DNA of 44,598 nt, taken from the NCBI GenBank assembly GCA_945787125.1, contig CALZHW010000009.1, positions 1 to 44,598 on the forward strand, in the 5' to 3' direction. Below the pieces are notes generated by a model that made no database searches, was not told the DNA's origin, and was given only the letters and a program-made list of their open reading frames with translations. Position numbers and translations under genes: made by a program. Positions within the stretch are counted from its first letter, which is position 1. Every line of letters begins with the position of its first letter. Of this stretch, positions 6,106 through 43,060 are shown one piece after another. Source of the stretch: an uncultured Ectothiorhodospiraceae bacterium. GTDB taxonomy: Bacteria; Pseudomonadota; Gammaproteobacteria; S012-40.

Positions 6106-7725
6106 TTATTGAGCACTTCTTTCTGCTTCTGTCGAATATAGATCAAAATGTGTTATGTCGATTTGTTCAGGTAATAGGTGATTTTCTGCATATTCCAGGT
6201 AAACTTTTTCATTAATAAAAAACTCGAATAATTTGGAGTCAATATGTCGATCATCACGCATTTTGCTTAATATACCCAGTGCCACAGAGAGCGGCATGGC
6301 TTTTTTATAGGGCCTATCAGCGGCAGTCAATGCTTCAAAAATATCGGCAATACACATTATACGTGCTTGCAATGACATGTGCTCGCCTTTAATACCGTTG
6401 GGATAGCCTTTACCGTCTATGCGTTCATGATGGTTACCGGCTATTTCTGGAACATTTTTCAGGTGTTTTGGGAAAGGCAGGGCTTCCAACATTTTTTGTG
6501 TCATGACAATATGGTTGTTGATGATTGTCCGCTCTTCCGCCGTTAGTGTGCCTTTACTGATACTCAAATTATAGACTTCATCAGGATTTAAAAGAACTTG
6601 TGCTTCGTTGTTGTGATCCAGCCATTTTTGTTCAGCGATTGTAGAAATGCGATGTTTGTCTTCTTCGCGCATAAACTCACTGCCTTTATTCGCCGTTTCG
6701 AGAAATCTTAAGTCTTCATCCAGCTGTTGTGATTTTGCCCGATATTCCGCCTGGGCTTTCTCTACTTGTAGGGGGTTACGTTCTTCCAGTAATGTTTCCA
6801 ATAATTGAATTTTTGCGTCTTTTTTGCTGCATAAAATACGTTGTTTGACGACTTCTAAGCGGTCATAAATACATTCGAGTTTGGTGGCTTTGTCTACTAT
6901 ATGTACTGGCGTAGTGATTTTGCCGCAGTCATGCAGCAGGGCTGCAATATTAATTTCGTATAATTCTTGTTCACTAAAGTTAGTTTGCGCTAATGGGCCA
7001 TGCTGCACATTATTGATGGATTTCGCGAATAAATTTGCTATAGCAGGCACTCGGCGGCAATGCCCGCCCGTATAGGGTGATTTTTCATCGATAGCTGAAG
7101 CGATAACTTCAATGAACTTTTCGAGTAAATTTTGCAAGTCTCCCGTTAATTGAAAGTTATTTAACGCGATTGCCGCTTGTGAGGCAAGAGATTCAGCCAT
7201 TTTTTGTTGGTCGATAGAAAAAGGTATGGGTTTACCGTTTTCAGGGCCTTTGGCATTAATGAGTTGCAATACACCAATGGTTTGATTTTGATGATTTTTA
7301 AGTGGAACAGTGAGAAATGATTTGGAATGGTAGTTATTTGATTTATCGTAATGTTTGGTGCCCTGAAAATTAAATCCATCAGCTTTATAGGCATCATGGA
7401 TATTAACGGTCTGGCCAGTGACTGCTGCAAATGCAGAGACATTCTTGCTGTTGGCTTGGCCGTCCTCGAAATACAGTGGAATTGGCGCAAATTCTATTGT
7501 TTGTTCGGTGGTACCACCCAAGGCTAAACCCAGTGAGTCAGTATGCACGATCTCAAAGTGCAAGCTGTTACCTTTAACGCGATATAAGGTTCCGCCGTCA
7601 GCATTCGTAATTTCTTTGGCGCCCAGCAGTATTTTTTCCATAAGTGCAGCAAGATTTTTTTCGCTGGATAAGGAAATCCCGATGGAGGTAAGTTTTTCAA
7701 TTTGTTGACTGAGATTATTGGCCAT
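6106..7725 (-). CDS. GAF domain HD-GYP phosphodiesterase (c-di-GMP)
   Basis: This 539-residue cytoplasmic protein is predicted to hydrolyse c-di-GMP. An N-terminal GAF sensor (about 10-190; FLTVPLKNHQNQTIGVLQLI) is followed by an HD-GYP domain. The metal-binding HD motif is in ALLHDCGKITTP near residue 265, and the signature HHERIDGKGYP is near 430, followed by ADIFEALTAADRPYK. Between them is a charged helical insertion of about 100 residues, seen in a known subfamily of GAF-HD-GYP proteins. There is no signal peptide or membrane helix. Just upstream on the same strand is the remnant of a GGDEF gene, so this may once have been a cyclase-phosphodiesterase pair. Confidence 0.9.
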   Translation of the reverse strand: MANNLSQQIEKLTSIGISLSSEKNLAALMEKILLGAKEITNADGGTLYRVKGNSLHFEIVHTDSLGLALGGTTEQTIEFAPIPLYFEDGQANSKNVSAFAAVTGQTVNIHDAYKADGFNFQGTKHYDKSNNYHSKSFLTVPLKNHQNQTIGVLQLINAKGPENGKPIPFSIDQQKMAESLASQAAIALNNFQLTGDLQNLLEKFIEVIASAIDEKSPYTGGHCRRVPAIANLFAKSINNVQHGPLAQTNFSEQELYEINIAALLHDCGKITTPVHIVDKATKLECIYDRLEVVKQRILCSKKDAKIQLLETLLEERNPLQVEKAQAEYRAKSQQLDEDLRFLETANKGSEFMREEDKHRISTIAEQKWLDHNNEAQVLLNPDEVYNLSISKGTLTAEERTIINNHIVMTQKMLEALPFPKHLKNVPEIAGNHHERIDGKGYPNGIKGEHMSLQARIMCIADIFEALTAADRPYKKAMPLSVALGILSKMRDDRHIDSKLFEFFINEKVYLEYAENHLLPEQIDITHFDLYSTEAERSAQ

Positions 7726-10847: not shown

Positions 10848-11056
10848 TTACTCACTATCGGAATTCAAAGTTGCAAAAGTACCACCTTCCAGCACCCGTA
10901 GTGGCAAAACCTTACCGAGAGACGCCGTGAATACGTCCTTGTAAGCTTGACGGCAGCATCCCTGCGGGCACATAGGACAACACTCTCGATAAGGCCTTGC
11001 CACTACAAGCGCTGATTACGGGAAATAGTTTGAACTCCAAAACTTGAGTAAGTTAT
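10848..11056. repeat. PAL-1 palindromic element, copy B (inverted orientation)
   Basis: The left end is TTACTCACTATCGGAATTC and the right end TTTGAACTCCAAAACTTG. The arms GGCAAAACCTTACCGAGAG and CTCTCGATAAGGCCTTGCC appear in the opposite order to copies A, C and E. It lies in the 523-bp gap between pgl and tal. The rest of that gap (10696-10847) shows only the small palindrome CCATAG/CTATGG near 10790. Confidence 0.8.
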
Positions 11057-12816: not shown

Positions 12817-14472
12817 ATGGCGTATTTGCTGTGTTTAACGAGTGATAATGTGATTACAACCCCATTTCAGTGGAATTGTCTATTAAAGACCCGCATCGCC
12901 ACTATTTTCATTGTATTTAGTGTGTCTTTGCTCGCCTGTACTGAGCAATCGCCTGTGTGGGTCACCCAGCTTGAAGTGATTCCGCCCGTTTTTAGTATTA
13001 AATCCAGTCAATACAATTCTAAGCCCTTTATTGCACGGGTAAAATATTCAGATGGTAAAACCGAGAATGCTTCCAATGCAGTTACCTGGCACAGTGAAAA
13101 TACGGCATTGTTAACCGTCTCGGTGGCGGGTGAGTTGGAAAAACAGGGCGAATGTTTATTAGCGCGATGTATTGTGAGCTTGATTGCCACCCATCCTGAA
13201 TCGGGTCAAAGTCAACGAGTTGAGGTTCAAGTATTTCCTGCAGAAGTCGAAATCCCAGTTGCCAAAAAAACAGCGACAAACGAGGCTGCAGAAGCGCACG
13301 TTGACAGTGACGCGGTTGTTGATGCCACGGAAACCTTGGATGACTTTGAAGATCTGGTGGATGTCAACGAGCCAGCGCGAGCTCTTCAAAATGAATCGAC
13401 AATAATGCTCGACTCATTTGAGAGTGAAACGTCATCGATTCCAATAGAGCAAACTTCAACCCACTCAGCTAATGTGCTTAATACTCAGGCATTGCAGTTC
13501 AATCAAACCAATGTGGTGGTTGAATCAGGCGACTTATTTCTGCCGTCAATTGTGTTTAGCAGTGCAACTTCACAGCAACCAGTGGCCAGTGATTATGACT
13601 GCCAAATTGAATATTCTGATGCTGATACGGTCTCAATAACAGCAGGGTGTGTCGTGCACCCGCAGGTGCCAGGAAATGCACGTATCAAACTATTGGCCAA
13701 ATCCACGAATTATTCTGCCACCAATTCGGTGTTGGATATTCGTGTTATCGCTAAACCGGTTGAATATACATTAGCCAACGGATTCCGCTTAAACCTCGCG
13801 GAAGCACAGGGCCAAACCTGGCTACAGTTAAACAATATCCCGGCTCACTTAGCACATCGGTTAACAGTCCATGGTTTACAGGGATTGGGTGCGCAATTTG
13901 CTGTTTTTCAGTCGTTTGAGAATAGTCTCGGAGCCTGTTTAAATACTGTGCCAGGCGATAGCGCAGAAGTTTCATGTATCATTAAACCAGTGAGTAATCA
14001 GTTATATTTAACCTTGTATAAACCTGCGGCTATTCGTAATGTTGTAGCACTTCAGCTATCGCCGGTAGCCGATCATTTATTCGCTTATACCCGCTTGAGT
14101 GATTCTCAGAACCCACAGCTTCTTACTATGAATAATTCTTTTCAGGCCTACCTATTGGCCAATGAATATGGGCTGCATAATAGACATTATTACAGTTTTA
14201 CATTGCCCAACAATATTGAAGAAAGTTCGACTCTCAGAGTGGTTTTAAAGGATTTTGATGAAGTACCTGGGATTGAAATAAAATGGGACAATGGCTCTTG
14301 TTCGCCTGCCAATCTGGCAATTACGGCTCAACAACTAGTTTGTGACTTACCCAGTGATGTTATCGGTAATCTACAAATAGCGATTAAGAGCGATTACTGG
14401 GAAAACACTGTCAGTAGTTTTATCGCCAAAAGTGGTGGAACTTATTATAGTGTTTTGGTTACCCAACAATAA
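12817..14472 (+). CDS. Ig-like repeat lipoprotein of unknown function (paralogue 1)
   Basis: A signal peptide ends in the lipobox VSLLAC (Cys41 from the ATG), so the product should be a lipoprotein. I do not recognise the family. The first 120 residues after the Cys look like a bacterial Ig-like (Big-2 type) beta domain: ARVKYSDGKTENASNAVTWHS. A long acidic Ala/Thr/Glu linker follows. The C-terminal half has two modules of about 85 residues, each with a Cys pair (LGACLNTVPGDSAEVSCIIK; WDNGSCSPANLAITAQQLVC). These are related to modules in the next gene. The ATG lacks a ribosome binding site. A GTG at 12850 with GAG seven bases upstream is an alternative start. Confidence 0.75.
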   Translation: MAYLLCLTSDNVITTPFQWNCLLKTRIATIFIVFSVSLLACTEQSPVWVTQLEVIPPVFSIKSSQYNSKPFIARVKYSDGKTENASNAVTWHSENTALLTVSVAGELEKQGECLLARCIVSLIATHPESGQSQRVEVQVFPAEVEIPVAKKTATNEAAEAHVDSDAVVDATETLDDFEDLVDVNEPARALQNESTIMLDSFESETSSIPIEQTSTHSANVLNTQALQFNQTNVVVESGDLFLPSIVFSSATSQQPVASDYDCQIEYSDADTVSITAGCVVHPQVPGNARIKLLAKSTNYSATNSVLDIRVIAKPVEYTLANGFRLNLAEAQGQTWLQLNNIPAHLAHRLTVHGLQGLGAQFAVFQSFENSLGACLNTVPGDSAEVSCIIKPVSNQLYLTLYKPAAIRNVVALQLSPVADHLFAYTRLSDSQNPQLLTMNNSFQAYLLANEYGLHNRHYYSFTLPNNIEESSTLRVVLKDFDEVPGIEIKWDNGSCSPANLAITAQQLVCDLPSDVIGNLQIAIKSDYWENTVSSFIAKSGGTYYSVLVTQQ

Positions 14473-14566: not shown

Positions 14567-16639
14567 ATGCTGACTAAATTCCTGCTTATCATTGCATCGC
14601 TGATAATGTTGGCTGCCTGCGGCAACGACGACAGCAGCAATGATGAGCCTGCACCGCAAATAGTCAATTTTTCAAGTGACACCACGAGTGTTAGCGTTAG
14701 CAAATCAAGCGATAGCAGCATTCAGCTAACGCTGCGATTTGATTTTGATGATCAAAGCACTGCTAATCGAATGTTAAACCTTGATTGGAATTCAACGCTG
14801 CAACAATTTGATATCAGTCCTGCTGACGGTGAAAAGTATCAACTCGAATTATTGGGTATCTCTGATCCTGATGTGGCCGATGAGCTGTGGATTACTGACC
14901 TCGAAGCAGAGAAAACCATAAATATTCCGGTCGATTTAGTCACTAGCCCAGCATTGATTAGTGCTATCACTTTTTCATTGCAGAAGACTGAATATACTGT
15001 GGGAGATGTTATTACCCCCATATTCACTTTCTCTTACACTCAAGGAGCATCGTCAAACGATATTCCACCAACAGTGGATTGCATCATTCAAACGGGTGAG
15101 TCAGTTTTAGCGGAAAAAGATAAATGTAGTTTTGAGGTGGTAGCACTCGGTCAGGCGCAAGTAGGTTTAACCGTGCCGGCAGATTTACTGGCTGAGAATG
15201 TTAGCTTACCGCAGATTGATATTGTTGCAACGACTCCACCTGTCCCACAAAGACTAAATTTAACTAACACTTCCGGAGCTGATTTAACGACTTTGCAAGT
15301 CGCATCCGATGTTTCAATTGAGCAATCTGCAATTTTACAAACCGAATATGATAAAGGTTTGCCAACAGCAGAAAACATCACGATTCAATGGCAACACAGT
15401 TCACTGAGCTTTAACGTCATCGACGCAGAGCAAACTGTTTACCCATCACAGTTTGACACAGCCACCGAGCAGCTAACGATTACTGATCCGGTATCTCAAT
15501 TAACCATTGTTATTGAAATATCAACGTTAGTGAAGGTTTTACGCTTTGATGTTGCTGAGATGACACTTTTATCGGGTCAGTCACGACAACTCGACAGTAT
15601 TGCAGAATTCGAGATTTTTGGGAAACAAGCCTCATTTAATGATGATGTGGAATGTTCGGCTGAAGCATCGGAAATGAATTTGATTAAAGTCAGTGAGAAT
15701 TGTGAAGTTGCAGCCTGGCTTCCAGGTGTGTATACCATTGAAGTCAACTTGCTCGATCCAACGCTTGCCGCTGTGGACTACCAGACTCAATCGTTACAGT
15801 TGACAGTAAGTCCGGTTAATTTGGGTAGTTTAAGTAATAGCTCTACGTTTATCCTTGATCAAACTGTTAATACCTCATTGATTACCTTTGAAATAGATGG
15901 CGCCACCGTTGATGAAATTTATAAAGTAACACTTAACACCGTTGGCGAGAGTTCATCGCTTAGCAACATATCGCTGGATGTATTTTTTGACTGGAATGTA
16001 CTGGGCTGTAAGGCATCGGGTATCGCATCGGAAACATCCCTTGCTTGCGGCATAAAAGCTATTCAAAGTAAGCTTTATTTAATTTTAGAAACCACTAATT
16101 TGAATGATTTCGGTGTGTTTAATTATACTTTGACGGTTGAGCCTGATATCGATATTTTAAATTTGGATGGTGATTTATCCACTTCCCCTGTTGCGTATCA
16201 AGTGCTTACCGTGGGCCCTAGATTTCTGGGTCACGTTCCGGCTAACGAGCATAATTTCAATAACATAAGTTTGTATAAAACAGATGTGGCAAATGGAATG
16301 AATCCAACGCTCGATCCCGGCGATTATCGAGTGAAAGTTGAATTCCAATCCCGTTTTTTCCAAGAAAATACAGTCGTAGTTCGTTGGGACAGTTCAGTCG
16401 CGCCGGGTGATTCAATTCGTTCTTGCTCGGTGTTTAACCCAACTGACACGGTCACAGGTATGCAGCTCTTTTCTTATATGAACGACAATGTCAGTCGCAC
16501 CATCGAATGTATTGTGCCTAACGCGGAGCAGCCACAAAACATCGTTGTTGAGATTTATGGCAATGGTCTTGACTCTAATTCCCCTAGCATTACCGGTGTA
16601 GAAGGCGAAGTTTCCTACGAAATAACCATTACTCAATAA
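14567..16639 (+). CDS. Ig-like repeat lipoprotein of unknown function (paralogue 2)
   Basis: The signal peptide MLTKFLLIIASLIMLAAC carries a clear lipobox (Cys18). The ATG at 14567 has AAGG nine bases upstream. A GTG at 14549, adding VKRRYW, is also possible, and longer frames starting inside the previous gene are unlikely. The mature protein of about 670 residues is almost all beta-strand-like, Ser/Thr/Asp-rich, with several Cys pairs. Its last 200 residues hold the same Cys-pair modules as the preceding protein (LGCKASGIASETSLACGIKA; VVVRWDSS...CSVF...IECIVP) and a similar ending (YEITITQ versus YSVLVTQQ). Function is unknown. The TAA stop is the first codon of PAL-1 copy C. Confidence 0.78.
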   Translation: MLTKFLLIIASLIMLAACGNDDSSNDEPAPQIVNFSSDTTSVSVSKSSDSSIQLTLRFDFDDQSTANRMLNLDWNSTLQQFDISPADGEKYQLELLGISDPDVADELWITDLEAEKTINIPVDLVTSPALISAITFSLQKTEYTVGDVITPIFTFSYTQGASSNDIPPTVDCIIQTGESVLAEKDKCSFEVVALGQAQVGLTVPADLLAENVSLPQIDIVATTPPVPQRLNLTNTSGADLTTLQVASDVSIEQSAILQTEYDKGLPTAENITIQWQHSSLSFNVIDAEQTVYPSQFDTATEQLTITDPVSQLTIVIEISTLVKVLRFDVAEMTLLSGQSRQLDSIAEFEIFGKQASFNDDVECSAEASEMNLIKVSENCEVAAWLPGVYTIEVNLLDPTLAAVDYQTQSLQLTVSPVNLGSLSNSSTFILDQTVNTSLITFEIDGATVDEIYKVTLNTVGESSSLSNISLDVFFDWNVLGCKASGIASETSLACGIKAIQSKLYLILETTNLNDFGVFNYTLTVEPDIDILNLDGDLSTSPVAYQVLTVGPRFLGHVPANEHNFNNISLYKTDVANGMNPTLDPGDYRVKVEFQSRFFQENTVVVRWDSSVAPGDSIRSCSVFNPTDTVTGMQLFSYMNDNVSRTIECIVPNAEQPQNIVVEIYGNGLDSNSPSITGVEGEVSYEITITQ

Positions 16640-16833
16640 CTCACAATCAGAGTTCAAATTATTTCCCGTAATCAGCACTCGTAGTGGCAAGGCCTTATCG
16701 AGAGTGTTGGCAGCAGGGATGCTGCCGTCAAGTTTCTATAGGGATATATTCTCGGGTAGGCTCCAGCTAAGGTTTTGCCGCTACGGGTGCTGGAAGGTAG
16801 CACTTCTTCAAATTTGAACGCCGATTGTGAGTA
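16637..16833. repeat. PAL-1 palindromic element, copy C
   Basis: The left end TAACTCACAATCAGAGTTC pairs with the right end GAACGCCGATTGTGAGTA. The central hairpin is GGCAGCAGGGATGCTGCC, and the arms are GTGGCAAGGCCTTATCG and GGTTTTGCCGCTACGG. It begins exactly at the stop codon of the upstream lipoprotein and separates that gene from the chemosensory operon. Confidence 0.85.
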
Positions 16834-16996: not shown

Positions 16997-18976
16997 ATGT
17001 TTAAAAAATTCTCTCTGCTGGCGAAAGTCAATCTTATTGTTGCCTTCGTGTTTTTATTTGTCACGGCGGTAGAGACTTTTTTGAGTGTTAAAAATGAACG
17101 TGAAAGTTATTTGCGGATTGCGGAAGAACAAGTTACTGATTTAACCACCTGGTATTTTGATAGTTTGAATACCATGATGCTAACCGGCACGATGAACCAG
17201 CGAACAATACTACGTGATAAGTTGCTCGCCAGGCCGCAGGTGCTCGAGGCACGAGTGATACGCGGCCAACCCGTGAAGCAACAGTTTGGCGTCGGTTTCC
17301 CAGAAGAGCAGCCGATCGATGAAATTGACTTCGCAGCCCTGGACGGAAAATCAGCGGTTATTGTGACTGAAAACTTTAAGGGACGAGAGCTTACCGTAGT
17401 CACTCCCTTTAAAGCCACAGAAAACACTCGAGGAGTTAATTGCTTGCGTTGCCATCACGTAGATTCTGGCGCGGTGAATGGTGCCATCCGAGTCACGTAT
17501 TCGCTGGCGCATTTAGATGAAGAAATTAAATCTCAATTGCTGACCAAATTGGCCACAAATTTTACCATGTATGCGTTGGGTATGGGTTTAATCAGCTTAA
17601 TGCTGATTCGTTGGTTCTCCAAGCCTATTAATGAGTTGATGCAAATCGTAAAAAAACGTGCGAGAGGTGATATAGCGGCAAGGGTCAATATAGAATCAAA
17701 AGATGAACTCGGTCGGCTAGGTGATGCTTTTAATACGATGGCGGGCAATGTGAATGCCATCGCCGACCGAGAGCATAATACAGCAGTTGAACTGCAGGCA
17801 AAAGTGGACGCTTTGCGCTCTGTTATGAAGAAAGTCACCGAGGGGGATTTTAGTGTCAAGGTCGGATTTAGTGGTGATGGCGCGATAGGTGAGCTTGCCT
17901 TAAGTTTACAAACTATGATTGATTATTTGAAACATTCATTAGATGAAAAGCATATTGCAGTGGAAACGCTGCAACAAAAAGTCGATAAAATTTTAGCAGT
18001 TACTCAGCATGTGTCCGCTGGAGATTTGACAAAATCCGTTGCTATACCTGGTAAAGATGCGATTGCACATCTATCTCAAGGAGTGCAAGGCATGGTTGGG
18101 AGTCTTGGTTCGCTAGTTGCGCAAATTCAAAATTCTGGTGCGAAAGTCACCTTGTCGACCGAAAAATTGGCAAAATGTATGAGTGAAGTTGAGGAAGTGG
18201 CGGCAAGACAAGCGACAGCAACCAGTGACATATCTGTTACCGTGACGGAAATTTCCAGCACAACTTCAGAGCTTTTAGTCACCATGAATGAAGTCGCAGA
18301 ATTAGCCGATAGCGCGACTATTTCCGCTGTTCACAGTGAAACTGGTTTGAAAAAACTGCAGGTTATGATGGAAAATGTCATACGATCATCGGCGCTGGTG
18401 GCCGAAAAACTCGAGATTCTTGACGAGCGCGCACAAAATATTAACTCGGTGGTGACGACGATCGGAAATGTCGCCGATCAAACCAATTTACTATCAATGA
18501 ATGCTGCGATAGAGGCAGAAAAAGCCGGTGAGTATGGGCGGGGATTTGCGGTAGTTGCCACAGAAATTCGTCGTTTGGCTGATCAGGCAGCGATTTCTAC
18601 CCTGGATATTGAGCAGATGATTAATGAAATGCAAGAGTCTGTTTTATCAGGGGTTGATACAATGAAGCAGTTTACCTTGCAAGTGCGTGAAAGTGTGGCT
18701 GAAGTGCAGTCGGTCAGTAAAGAGCAGAGTGAGATTATTTCACAGGTGGGAACCATGGGGCCGAGATTCGAAGTCCTGCATCAATCTATGCAATTCCAAA
18801 CCACCGGTGCCGAGCAAATCCATGTTTCCATGCTTAAACTCGATAATGATGCAAAGAAAACGATGGAGTCGCTAAAATTCTCATCAAAAACCATTCGCGA
18901 TCTCGAAGATTCAGCTGACGATTTACAAAATAGTGTTTCCAAATTCAAAGTCTCAGATAAAAAGTGGACGAGCTGA
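16997..18976 (+). CDS. methyl-accepting chemotaxis receptor with periplasmic c-type haem motif
   Basis: This 659-residue transmembrane receptor has TM1 (about 10-27), a periplasmic domain of about 160 residues, TM2 (187-206), a HAMP domain (207-258) and further HAMP-like units (about 265-385). It ends in a methyl-accepting signalling domain whose tip contains NAAIEAEKAGEYGRGFAVVA near residue 510. The periplasmic domain carries CLRCHH (Cys149, Cys152, His153), a c-type haem attachment motif, followed by SGAVNGAIRVTYSL. This fits the Tll0287-like/DUF3365 type of c-haem sensor, and Geobacter receptors with c-haem PAS-like domains are a known parallel. It probably senses redox state or a small haem ligand. 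The start is only weakly supported by a ribosome binding site. Confidence 0.92.
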   Translation: MFKKFSLLAKVNLIVAFVFLFVTAVETFLSVKNERESYLRIAEEQVTDLTTWYFDSLNTMMLTGTMNQRTILRDKLLARPQVLEARVIRGQPVKQQFGVGFPEEQPIDEIDFAALDGKSAVIVTENFKGRELTVVTPFKATENTRGVNCLRCHHVDSGAVNGAIRVTYSLAHLDEEIKSQLLTKLATNFTMYALGMGLISLMLIRWFSKPINELMQIVKKRARGDIAARVNIESKDELGRLGDAFNTMAGNVNAIADREHNTAVELQAKVDALRSVMKKVTEGDFSVKVGFSGDGAIGELALSLQTMIDYLKHSLDEKHIAVETLQQKVDKILAVTQHVSAGDLTKSVAIPGKDAIAHLSQGVQGMVGSLGSLVAQIQNSGAKVTLSTEKLAKCMSEVEEVAARQATATSDISVTVTEISSTTSELLVTMNEVAELADSATISAVHSETGLKKLQVMMENVIRSSALVAEKLEILDERAQNINSVVTTIGNVADQTNLLSMNAAIEAEKAGEYGRGFAVVATEIRRLADQAAISTLDIEQMINEMQESVLSGVDTMKQFTLQVRESVAEVQSVSKEQSEIISQVGTMGPRFEVLHQSMQFQTTGAEQIHVSMLKLDNDAKKTMESLKFSSKTIRDLEDSADDLQNSVSKFKVSDKKWTS

Positions 18977-18980
18977 AAGA

Positions 18981-19697
18981 ATGGCTGGGGTTAAAATTTC
19001 ACAAAATCAATCTAAAGATTCTGCGTGCTGGCGTCTGTATGGTATATGGAGTGCAGAACCAAGCTGTGAAAAACTGACTTACGTCAAACATTGTCGTAAT
19101 TGCGATGTCTTTGGAAATGCAGCGAGGCAATCTCTAGATGCAAGCAGTGCTGAGTCACCACCCAAGGGTTTTGGTGCGTTTTCTATTGAAGAACTTATTG
19201 AAAAAGAAAAAGTGGCCGGAGATAACTCTGCGTTGCCCTTTCGAGTTAGGGGTAATTGTTTCGCTGTACCAAGCGAAAGCATTGTAACGATTACTGACAC
19301 AGTTGCTGTGCATTCTATTCCGCATAATAAAAATCCTGTATTAAAAGGTCTGGTGGCAATAAATAATGAAATTTATTCTTTAATTGATATTGCACTATTG
19401 TTAGGGGTTAAAACGGCACCGTTGACGGTAACCAATACAGCGAAGAAGGGCCTTTTCAAGCGTATTTTAGTAGTAAACCTCGGGCAGCGTTTTGTGGCAT
19501 TCTATGTGGATGAGGTCTACCAGATTCATCGTTATTTTGCGAAATATTTACAAGCCGTGAAAAGTCAATCATCGAGTCAGGCTAATGACGAAGTTTTGCC
19601 ACATGGCATATTGGGTAATTTTGGCCAATGGGAAAGTGATTGTATGTTGTTGAACTTACAGACTTTACAGTCTACCTTTGAGAAAAGTCTAAAATAA
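18981..19697 (+). CDS. CheW-like coupling protein with N-terminal Cys cluster
   Basis: CheW proteins link receptors to the kinase CheA. The ATG at 18981, five bases after the receptor stop, is preferred. The frame also opens at 18933, inside the receptor gene. The first 45 residues hold CWRLYGIW, PSCEKLTYV and KHCRNCDVF, four Cys in a pattern that I recall from WspB/WspD-type CheW proteins of Wsp clusters. A CheW domain follows (about 80-235: LPFRVRGNCFAVPSESIV, VLKGLVAINNEIYSLIDI, RFVAFYVDEVYQI). It is the second gene of the operon, with tight spacing to both neighbours. Confidence 0.88.
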   Translation: MAGVKISQNQSKDSACWRLYGIWSAEPSCEKLTYVKHCRNCDVFGNAARQSLDASSAESPPKGFGAFSIEELIEKEKVAGDNSALPFRVRGNCFAVPSESIVTITDTVAVHSIPHNKNPVLKGLVAINNEIYSLIDIALLLGVKTAPLTVTNTAKKGLFKRILVVNLGQRFVAFYVDEVYQIHRYFAKYLQAVKSQSSSQANDEVLPHGILGNFGQWESDCMLLNLQTLQSTFEKSLK

Positions 19698-19700
19698 ATA

Positions 19701-21983
19701 ATGGCGAGTGAAGACTACAATGACTTGAGTAACCTTTCCATGCTGGAATTGTTTCGCATGGAAGTTGAGACTCAAACAGCTGTGCTCAATCAAGGATTAC
19801 TTGAAATGGAGCATATCAAACCGGTACCAGAGATGCTGGAGAACTTGATGCGTGCAGCGCATTCCATCAAGGGCGCTGCGCGCATGGTTAATGTGGATGC
19901 CATCGTAAAATTGGCTCATGTTATAGAAGACTGTTTTGTGGCTGTACAAAAAATAGATTTACAGCTCAGCGATAGACATATTGATACCTTGCTGGGCGGC
20001 GTGGATTTAATATTACAGATCTCACAGGTGGAAGATGCCAGGATTGAAACATGGACTGATGAAAACGGTATTGAATTACAGCACATGGAAAGTGCATTAA
20101 GAGCGATTAATCCTGAAAACCAAAGTGTTCAAGAGAAAGATGTCGATCAAATAGAAGCAATACCTCTTAAAGAAGGTGATTTATTGAATCTGCAGGAAGT
20201 ATTGCCGGAAGTAAAAACTGCGGCGCAATCAACAATCCGAATCGGTGTCGATCGTTTAGATAAAATTCTCAGTTTGGCTGGAAAATCGTTGGTTGAAACT
20301 CATCAGCTGAGTGCGCTTTTGCCGGCATTTTGGCAAATTAAGCATAAATACCAACGCATAATTTCTGAAGTCAGTAGTTTACAGGAGTTGTTATCACAAG
20401 ATATTGATAAACAGCAAGTTAAAAATGATGTAAAAGATATTCTGACGAATTTAAACTTGCTACGTCATCAGGTTGCAGAAAATGTTGCTCAGCTTGATGC
20501 AATTGACCGCAGAACATCTACCATCTCAGACCACCTGCATCGTGAAATTATGAGTAGCCGGATGCGACCTATTTCAGAAATTGTCGGTGGTTTACCACGC
20601 ATGGTGCGAGATTTGGGTCGACGACTGGATAAAGAAGTACGGCTGCGAATGTCAGGCATTTCCATGTTGGTTGATCGTCATGTATTGGAGCGGATAGATA
20701 CCCCGATTAAACATTTAGTCCAAAATGCGATAGACCATGGCGTTGAGTTTCCTCATGAGCGAGAGCAGGTGGGAAAGTCGTCAGTTGCGACTATCAACAT
20801 CTCAGTCAGTATGAGTGGCGGCATGTTATATATCATTGTCGAAGATGATGGCCGTGGTGTAGATTTTGAAAAACTGAAAAAAAGTATTTTATATAAGAGA
20901 TTGGCAACGCCTGAGCAACTCGTGAACTTGGAAGGTTCTGAATTGCTGGACTATATTTTTTACCCTGGATTCACAACTCGTAAAGAAGTGAATGATATTT
21001 CTGGACGCGGCGTGGGCCTGGATCTGGTAAAAGAAGCGGTGGTTGGTCTTAATGGTTCTGTACAAGCTGTCGCTAAAGTAGGGCGGGGCATGCGATTTCA
21101 AGTGATGTTACCCTTAAATATTTCAGTGTTAAGGGTGATGTTGGCGTCAGTCCATGGTGAGTCCTATGCCTTTCCTATGTCGTCTATAGATAGAATGATT
21201 TATGCAGGCAAGAACGAAGTTGTGGAGATGAGTGCAGGCTATTATTTGAAAATGGAAAATGAAGAAATTCCTTTAATTCATGCCAACGAGATTTTTGGCA
21301 GAAGCCTACCAAAACATTTGCCGCCGCAGTTAGCTGTTATTGTCTTGGATAATAATGATAAAAAATATGGAGTAGTGGTTGAAAAAATTGATGGTGAACA
21401 GGAAGTGTCGCTGCATAAGCTATCGAGCGAGCTGGGAAAAATTCGGGGAATTAATGCGGCAGCAATACTCAATAATGGGGCATTATCCTTGATTGTAGAA
21501 ATCGAGGAAATTATTACCACGGTTGATATTTTTCTGAAAAATAGTGCGAAAGTTAATCTTAGTCAGGAAAGCAATATTATTATGTGCGAGTTAATTCATA
21601 CGTTGGTCGTCGATGATTCACTTACCGTTCGGGAAATGGAAAGGAAATTGATTTCCAGTTTACATCACAAAGTCAGTGTCGCTGAAGATGGACAAGAAGC
21701 GTTGGTTATATTGGCGAATAAAACGATTGATTTAGTGGTGACGGATATTGATATGCCAAATATGAACGGCATTCAGTTGGTTAATGAAATACGTTTTCAA
21801 CCCAAATTGGAGCACTTGCCGATTTTGATAGTATCAAATCGTGATAAATCCTTTATCGAGAAAAGTGTAATTTTAAATGATAAAACCGTGTATTTGGCAA
21901 AAGATCAATTCACTAAAAAAGAATTTTTAAGTATTGTGGAAAGACTTGCCAGATCTGTAAGCACCGTTTCTGAAATAGGCTAA
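19701..21983 (+). CDS. hybrid chemotaxis histidine kinase CheA-REC (WspE-like)
   Basis: In its 760 residues this protein has an HPt domain with the phospho-accepting His54 ([12 protein letters not shown]) and a dimerisation region (about 175-280). The HATPase domain shows an N box ([13 protein letters not shown]), G1 ([12 protein letters not shown]) and G2 ([13 protein letters not shown]). A CheW-like domain follows (about 470-610), and then a C-terminal receiver (about 635-755; [23 protein letters not shown] with Asp near 683, and YLAKDQF). It would autophosphorylate under receptor control and pass phosphate to its own receiver or to the next gene's receiver. The CheA-REC layout is that of WspE. 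It starts three bases after the CheW stop. Confidence 0.94.
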
Positions 21984-21988
21984 CGATA

Positions 21989-23038
21989 ATGTTTACCGAT
22001 AAAACAATAAACAAAGAATCGCATAAAATGATGCGAATTTTAGTAATCGATGACCAGCGGATGGTAGTGGAAGGTGTGCGGCGTATGCTGCAGACTGAAG
22101 CAGATATTGAATTCTTTTATTGTACTGAACCGAGTAAGTCAGTGGAAACCGCCATAACTGTTAAGCCAACCATCATCTTGCTAGATTTATTAATGCCTGA
22201 AATGGGTGGTATGACGTTACTGAAATTTTTCAAAGAGAACGAGAAGACGCAAGACATTCCACTGATTGTGTTATCAAGCATTGAAGATCCTGTTGAAAAA
22301 GAAGCCGCTTTTAGAGCCGGTGCCAGTGATTATGTGGTTAAACTGCCTGATAAAATTGAACTAATTGCCCGCATCCGGGCACATGCACGCAGTTACTTGA
22401 ATAAAATGGAGCGTGACGAAGCGTTTCAGGAATTGCGTCAGTTAAAAGCGGAACTCGAAGAAAGCAATCGCGCATTACAAGCATTGTCTTGTTTGGATGG
22501 TTTAACGGGTATTGCCAATCGTCGTCGTTTCGACGAGTATCTCGTTCAGGAATGGAAACGTGCATTACGTGAAAGCTCAGTAGTTTCACTCGTTCTTATT
22601 GATATTGATTACTTCAAACCCTACAATGATAACTATGGTCATCAGCAAGGTGACGACACTTTAAAGTCAGTTGTTAATGCACTGGCTAGCGTCGTTAATC
22701 GGCCTGCAGATTTATTGGCACGCTATGGCGGTGAAGAGTTTGTTCTAGTTTTGCCAGATACCAACCTGGATGGTGCTGCAAAGCTAGCTGAGTTGTTAAG
22801 AGTGACGGTTAGTTCATTGGAAATCAAACATGATTTCTCCAAGGTCACCGATCATGTCACCCTAAGTATTGGCGTTGCCTGCTGCGAGCCAGAAAAACAA
22901 TACTGCCTGCCAGATCAATTAATTGAAGTAGCAGACAAAGCACTTTATGCCGCAAAGCATGAAGGTAGAAACTGTATTCGTCTAGCCAGTGGTTGTGATG
23001 GCAAATGCGAACTTAATCAAGTATCAAGTAGTAACTAA
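21989..23038 (+). CDS. response regulator diguanylate cyclase (WspR-like REC-GGDEF)
   Basis: The receiver domain has the acidic pair Asp21/Asp22, phospho-acceptor Asp66 (LLDLLMPEM) and Lys118. A coiled coil (about 135-165) leads into a GGDEF domain with an intact active site, RYGGEEF (247-251). It also has the RxxD product-inhibition site (RPAD, 238-241), so it should make c-di-GMP and be feedback inhibited. The order REC, coiled coil, GGDEF is that of WspR. It ends the operon five bases after the kinase. The ATG pair at codons 14-15 ([10 protein letters not shown]) is an alternative start. The TAA stop is the first codon of PAL-1 copy D, and the last 15 residues include GCDGKC, an unusual tail. 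Confidence 0.94.
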
Positions 23039-23240
23039 CTCAAGATTCGGAGTTCAACAATTGCAACAGTGCCACCTTCAAGCGCCCGTAGCGGCAGACC
23101 TTACCGACAGACGCCGTGATACGTCCCTGTCTGTGGCTTGGCGGCAGCATCCATGTGGCACATGGGGCAACACTTTCGTTAAGGCATTGCCACTACGGAC
23201 GCTGATAATGGGGAATAGTTGAACTCAAAAACTTGAGTAA
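23036..23240. repeat. PAL-1 palindromic element, copy D (inverted orientation)
   Basis: The element runs from TAACTCAAGATTCGGAGTTC to GTTGAACTCAAAAACTTG. Arms GCGGCAGACCTTACCGAC and CGTTAAGGCATTGCCACTAC are in the B/D/F order. It starts at the stop codon of the GGDEF gene and fills most of the gap between two convergent genes. I see nothing else in 23241-23395. Confidence 0.82.
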
Positions 23241-23395
23241 CTAAGACATTTAGCAATACTCATCCTGTAATAGATTCCTAAGTCCTATCCTATTGTTTGA
23301 CTCAAGAAATTGGCAAAAGGAAGGAGTTGATGAAGTGTTCATCGACTGGATGGCGTGGTAGCGTTTGTTTTTTCGTTAAAACTATTTTCACGAGC

Positions 23396-40538: not shown

Positions 40539-40570
40539 GCAGTATGACTATTTGTAAAAAAGTTGTTTTG

Positions 40571-40765
40571 TAACTCACAATTGGAGTTCAAACTATTTCC
40601 CATATTCAGCGCTCGTAGCGGCAAGGCCTTATCGAGAGTGTTGGCAGCATGGATGCTGCCGCCAAGCCTACAGGGAGGTATTCACGGCGTCTCTCGGTAA
40701 AGTTTGGTCACTACGAGCGCTGGAACGTGGCACTTTTGCAACTTTGAATTCCGATTGTGAGTTGT
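40571..40765. repeat. PAL-1 palindromic element, copy E
   Basis: The left end is TAACTCACAATTGGAGTTC and the right end GAATTCCGATTGTGAGTTG. The hairpin core GGCAGCATGGATGCTGCC and arms GCGGCAAGGCCTTATCG are clear. It fills the 264-bp gap between lpd and sucC, inside an otherwise continuous TCA-cycle gene cluster. Confidence 0.88.
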
Positions 40766-42863: not shown

Positions 42864-43060
42864 TTAACCTCTCACAACCGGAACTCAAAGTTACATAGTG
42901 CCACCTTCGAGCACCCGTAGCGGCAAAACCTTACTAAGAGACGTCGGTGAAACGTCTCTGTAGACTTGACGGCAGAGTCCATGCTGCAAACACTCTCGAT
43001 AAGGCCTTGCCACTACTAGCGCTGATTATGTGAAATAGTTTGAGTCCGATTGTGAGTTAA
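42864..43060. repeat. PAL-1 palindromic element, copy F (inverted orientation)
   Basis: The left end TAACCTCTCACAACCGGAAC and right end GAGTCCGATTGTGAGTTAA pair, and arms GCGGCAAAACCTTACTAAG and CTCGATAAGGCCTTGCC are in B/D/F order. It lies between convergent sucD and the UPF0114 gene. Confidence 0.83.

Follow-up and report, generated by a model that had tools for sequence, protein, structure and literature searches.

The window analyzed here is the whole stretch of 44,598 nucleotides from an uncultured Ectothiorhodospiraceae bacterium. On its plus strand, a set of four genes occupies positions 16997-23038, and all four open reading frames are intact. A preliminary description of the locus had read them as a receptor with a CLRCHH motif, a CheW, a CheA-REC hybrid and a REC-GGDEF protein with GGEEF and RPAD sites, and this is confirmed at the coordinates below. 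It had missed two genes for exported Ig-like proteins, possible parts of the system, that lie upstream. Throughout, G000 is the source genome, other G-labels are sampled genomes and L-labels are fetched loci.

12817-14472, plus strand: exported Ig-like protein (paralogue 2), possible envelope partner, with homologues upstream of wspA in G004 and L010
14432-16639, plus strand: exported Ig-like lipoprotein (paralogue 1) directly upstream of the receptor gene, with a C-terminal tandem beta-sandwich
16997-18976, plus strand: wspA-type receptor (TM, sCache_heme, TM, HAMP repeats, WspA-type signalling domain)
17177-17179, plus strand: Met61, predicted distal haem ligand, aligning with Met60 of GSU0582/GSU0935
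17441-17458, plus strand: CLRCHH (C149, C152, H153; residues 149-154), predicted covalent c-haem attachment motif
18152-18232, plus strand: decayed methylation helix 1 (receptor residues 386-412), marked by loss of conserved positions
18981-19697, plus strand: wspD-type CheW, with an N-terminal CW...HCRNC motif as in WspD
19701-21983, plus strand: wspE-type CheA-REC (Hpt with His54, HATPase, CheW, REC), key residues intact
21989-23038, plus strand: wspR-type REC-GGDEF diguanylate cyclase, with RPAD I-site and GGEEF

Pfam domains are HAMP and MCPsignal in the receptor, CheW in the second protein, Hpt-HATPase-CheW-REC in the kinase and REC-GGDEF in the cyclase, whose RPAD and GGEEF sites span residues 238-241 and 247-251 (within 22700-22741). 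Both sites are intact, as are the Hpt histidine, the N, G1 and G2 boxes and both REC aspartates with their phosphorylation pockets. The spacers inside the set measure only 3-5 bp, so that no gene can be hidden between the four frames; for the CheW gene, ATG 18981 is a more likely start than GTG 18933, which overlaps the receptor gene. Promoter and terminator scans of the locus gave nothing above shuffled sequence. All four products have Wsp proteins as their best matches and do not belong to the Pil-Chp class. Among solved structures, the cyclase is matched best and over its full length by Pseudomonas aeruginosa WspR (3bre, E 2e-103), the next full-length match outside WspR being PleD (1e-46). 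A search of other genomes for the same gene order, suggested in the preliminary description, found it in four other genera of the same family (G001, G004, G006 and G009); chance, assembly error and gene-calling artefact are therefore set aside.

The Wsp system of Pseudomonas and relatives has a homologous receptor signalling domain, WspD, WspE and WspR, in a like order and with c-di-GMP as output. The source operon differs from it in lacking WspB, WspC and WspF, in the periplasmic c-haem Cache sensor predicted for its receptor, and in the decay of the methylation helix. It shows the WspR-type output, WspE-type CheA-REC and WspD-type CheW that are features of Wsp; as its operon has no B, C or F, it falls outside the wspA-wspF synteny definition (PMC8552884). 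Because the main Wsp survey was defined by that synteny, reduced forms were excluded from it by design (PMC8552884).

The kinship with Wsp goes beyond the likeness in logic that had been noticed at the outset. In the tree, systems without CheR form one clade (support 1.0 with FastTree, 99% SH-aLRT in a 24-taxon IQ-TREE), nested within Wsp systems and placed at an orthologous locus; its sister, G012, is a member of the same family, in which wspC and wspF are still present at that site. CNNM and cytochrome-assembly genes lie downstream in G000, G004, G002 and G012 alike, and in G000, G004 and G012 the match runs on through MBL and Ffh. The flanks shared with G012 indicate that wspC and wspF were lost in place. 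On sequence grounds, the source operon is a descendant of a Wsp operon by gene loss. Within the family, WspB was lost before WspC and WspC before WspF; on the tree, WspC was lost once and WspF at least twice, or more often if it was never regained. Since the reduced clade is a single lineage, the traits that its members share are not independent. In G002 and G009 the REC domain of the kinase is degenerate, in G001 and G006 partly so; that of the source is intact.

Of 369 genomes sampled from the class, 55 have a match to the sensor profile. Complete wspA-B-C-D-E-F-R operons with an orthologous haem receptor occur in 25 sampled Gammaproteobacteria, the gene assignments having been checked by comparison with annotated Azoarcus and Mesorhizobium operons. 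The receptors of such operons (for instance in G033, G034 and G092) are alike in architecture to that of the source, at ~45-51% full-length identity, whereas the operons themselves keep the WspB, WspC and WspF that the source operon does not. WspB is missing from G112 and G012, WspB and WspC from G002, and WspB, WspC and WspF from G000, G004, G001, G006 and G009. Most Wsp operons with this haem receptor retain wspC/wspF; haem input and missing methylation are therefore separate traits, and not the single package that they had been taken for. In the literature searched, we found no description of a haem form of Wsp. Wsp is a model of surface sensing; this widespread haem-sensor form offers an input that can be tested chemically, and the graded series of operons (complete; without B; without C; without C and F) amounts to a natural experiment on the role of methylation in c-di-GMP control.

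Several observations were made beside this series. L112 (G310) carries a haem wsp operon with wspC and without wspB and wspF, the opposite of G002. Although Wsp has been reported from beta- and gammaproteobacteria exclusively (PMC8552884), a complete wspABCDEFR operon is carried by L104, the conjugative plasmid pMLb of the alphaproteobacterium Mesorhizobium japonicum. In several families, complete haem wsp operons are preceded by a divergent gene for a REC-REC-PAS-GGDEF-EAL protein, possibly a counter-enzyme (L057:11166-13733 and L109:914-3475; also L110, L114 and L116). In the window, positions 6106-7725 (minus strand) encode a GAF-HD_5 protein, likely a c-di-GMP phosphodiesterase of the HD-GYP type, and a protein of matching make-up is encoded divergently upstream of haem wspA in G045 (L059:11819-13432).

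The source periplasmic domain has no meaningful Pfam match and no single-sequence match in the PDB. CXXCH and Met61 are invariant across 58 of 58 receptor relatives. A profile of these relatives has GSU0582 (3b47) as its best solved match, a weak one (E 0.03), and PF11845 (Tll0287-like) weakly matches 24 of the 58 (best E 4e-4) and not the source receptor. The best Foldseek match of a sensor model built from six sequences (pLDDT 84) is GSU0935 (3b42, E 8e-6). With strands at 120-126 and 129-139, a helix at 147-152 bearing CXXCH and a strand at 160-169, the model fits a Cache fold with the CXXCH helix between beta strands 3 and 4; the motif occupies the family position of sCache_heme (DUF3365/Tll0287), a name given in a 2026 preprint (PMC12889525). 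The profile alignment pairs Met61 with the first Met of LMM in 3b47, which has chain number 26. Counting from His143, which has chain number 109, this residue is Met60, the ligand displaced by CO and NO in GSU0582 and GSU0935 (PMC8396549) and shared by the source receptor with this Geobacter pair. CcmE, for c-haem maturation, is encoded in the source genome. We conclude that the sensor is a divergent sCache_heme domain, of a subfamily below Pfam detection, and that the receptor almost certainly carries c-haem, as the preliminary description had read from its sequence.

GSU0582, GSU0935 and the sCache_heme protein of P. azotoformans (PMC12889525, PMC8396549) share with the source receptor the Cache fold, CXXCH, two TM segments and HAMP; for none of them is a c-di-GMP cyclase described as the target. 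A HAMP-linked member of the family releases NO slowly and forms no stable oxygen complex (PMC12889525). The signal reaching the haem may be a gas or a redox change; the closest published counterpart binds NO.

Within methylation helix 1, the CheR-less clade has lost 9 of the 15 positions conserved in CheR-bearing haem receptors, compared with 14 of 158 such positions elsewhere in the receptor (p = 8e-6; clustering was equally strong in 2 of 500 permutations). Significance is confined to this regional clustering: taken together, Glu/Gln columns show no more loss than the remaining conserved columns (p = 1), and pair residue 405 is still Gln. Neither a strict nor a relaxed methylation consensus occurs in the source receptor. 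Outside the operon, the genome encodes five CheR and three CheB proteins; profile searches of an assembly ~95% complete, in which ~71 kb of contig C3 reads as N, found none of WspC type (best ~173 bits with the WspC profile, versus 245-595 for true WspC) or WspF type (best ~267 bits with the WspF profile, versus 402-546 for true WspF). These CheRs and CheBs group outside the WspC and WspF groups, and the CheRs lack the TPR part of WspC. A 24,158-residue open frame with a CheR match on contig C3 was rejected as an artefact of the N stretch. The claim that the pathway is adaptation-free is thus upheld in part: the missing wspC and wspF and the decayed helix speak for it and the stand-alone cheR and cheB genes against it. 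Dedicated methylation is probably gone, to judge from the absent genes and the state of helix 1, and methylation in the cell may well be absent too.

The exported proteins upstream may be part of the system. Where paralogue 1 starts is uncertain; translation from ATG 14567 yields a signal peptide that ends in LAAC. One family lies directly upstream of wspA in G000 and L010 (two copies each), G004, G001, G006 and G008, and hhalign matches its C-terminal half, at low probability, to the proteins encoded upstream in G002 and G009 (E 0.003 and 0.001), which makes 6 to 8 of 8 reduced loci. None of 33 other wsp loci with readable upstream sequence has a match. The association with reduced loci, which we regard as new here, has a Fisher probability of ~1e-5 (31 loci, relatedness ignored). 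In the 29 genomes searched, the C-terminal half is all but confined to the neighborhood of reduced wsp operons, the remaining matches being to the Ig-like part save for one marginal, partial match in G045. In G001 and G006 the downstream neighborhood is unlike that of G000 and G004, and the exported family is still present; the SpoT genes adjoining wspR in these two genomes were rejected as system members, being part of another chromosomal context and absent in the source. A model of paralogue 1 (pLDDT 72) has the tandem collagen-binding domains of ColG as its best fold match, a generic beta-sandwich signal with TM below 0.5 that serves as a hint only.

The computed features of the locus, namely homology, domain order, intact catalytic residues, the in-place loss of wspC and wspF and helix 1 decay, lead us to read it, with a probability of roughly two thirds, as a reduced Wsp descendant in which a c-haem (sCache_heme) receptor makes a non-adapting, haem-gated c-di-GMP switch, most likely gated by NO or redox; haem binding, the ligand, the direction of the response, phosphotransfer and the lack of methylation in the cell are what we infer. 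In this scheme the periplasmic haem would be held by CXXCH with His153, and Met61 would probably be the sixth ligand. Met61 would be displaced by NO (or CO) or by a change in haem redox state, and the movement would pass across the membrane and through the HAMP repeats to the signalling tip. The tip, via the single WspD-type CheW, would set the activity of the WspE-type kinase, hence WspR phosphorylation and c-di-GMP output. With WspB, WspC and WspF lost, the receptor would no longer adapt by methylation, and would therefore sense a level and not a change. The nearest precedent for losing methylation, from another class, is Flm of Comamonas testosteroni, which has lost CheR, CheB and an extra CheW, has a receptor without methylation sites and controls biofilm (PMC6391922). 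Flm differs from the source system in being of the Pil-Chp class, with CheY-like outputs, no GGDEF and no haem receptor reported (PMC6391922).

A tentative alternative that deserves real weight is that the haem responds to redox in the periplasm or respiratory chain instead of to NO, with oxidation freeing Met61 and so activating the receptor, as proposed for Geobacter. The invariance of the Met60 equivalent and the redox-linked ligand release of the Geobacter model (PMC8396549) agree with this; however, in the sole family-wide functional comparison the signalling type, represented by one protein, releases NO slowly, as NO sensors do (PMC12889525). One could also envision a receptor that still adapts, being methylated in trans by the CheR/CheB of a motility or pilus-type chemosensory system. 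Such genes are at hand, and two residues at or beside sites of the methylation helices, Gln405 and Glu399, are retained, but the receptor has no consensus site and its helix 1 is decayed, the CheRs stand apart from WspC and lack its TPR part, and WspF is gone as well in most of the clade. Methylation in trans is best called distinctly unlikely.

An unlikely reading, though less so, makes surface or mechanical contact the main input, through the upstream Ig-like protein, the haem being modulatory or structural. Canonical Wsp responds to surfaces (PMC8552884), the exported family goes with reduced wsp loci, and the fold of its C-terminal part is like that of beta-sandwich domains that bind matrix; yet the invariance of CXXCH argues that the haem matters, the association may reflect shared ancestry, and the fold model is of modest confidence. 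It is very improbable that the operon is a decaying remnant without function: branches are long and the kinases of G002 and G009 have a degenerate REC, but in G000 and G004 frames are open and catalytic residues intact across ~60% identity, and WspR is intact in all members with complete sequence. To return to the haem-gated switch, a doubtful extension would be a five- or six-gene circuit from envelope to c-di-GMP, a Wsp system rebuilt so that one or two exported Ig-like, matrix-binding-like proteins and the non-adapting, haem-gated receptor form a steady-state detector, responding jointly to contact with a surface or matrix and to NO or redox. What most merits further work is the exported partner, together with the wider haem-Wsp group.

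Two copies of a dispersed foldback repeat bracket the wsp operon:

16635-16829, minus strand: ~190-bp foldback repeat between the lipoprotein gene and the receptor gene
23043-23242, plus strand: second copy, just 3' of wspR

The repeat is imperfect and intergenic, and has no family in Rfam. It recurs in the window at 1819-1921 and 2047-2140, 10853-11052, 40569-40759 and 42873-43060, with about one copy per 6-7 kb of source genome sampled, and is also present in L065, L066, L067, L068, L070, L149 and L046.
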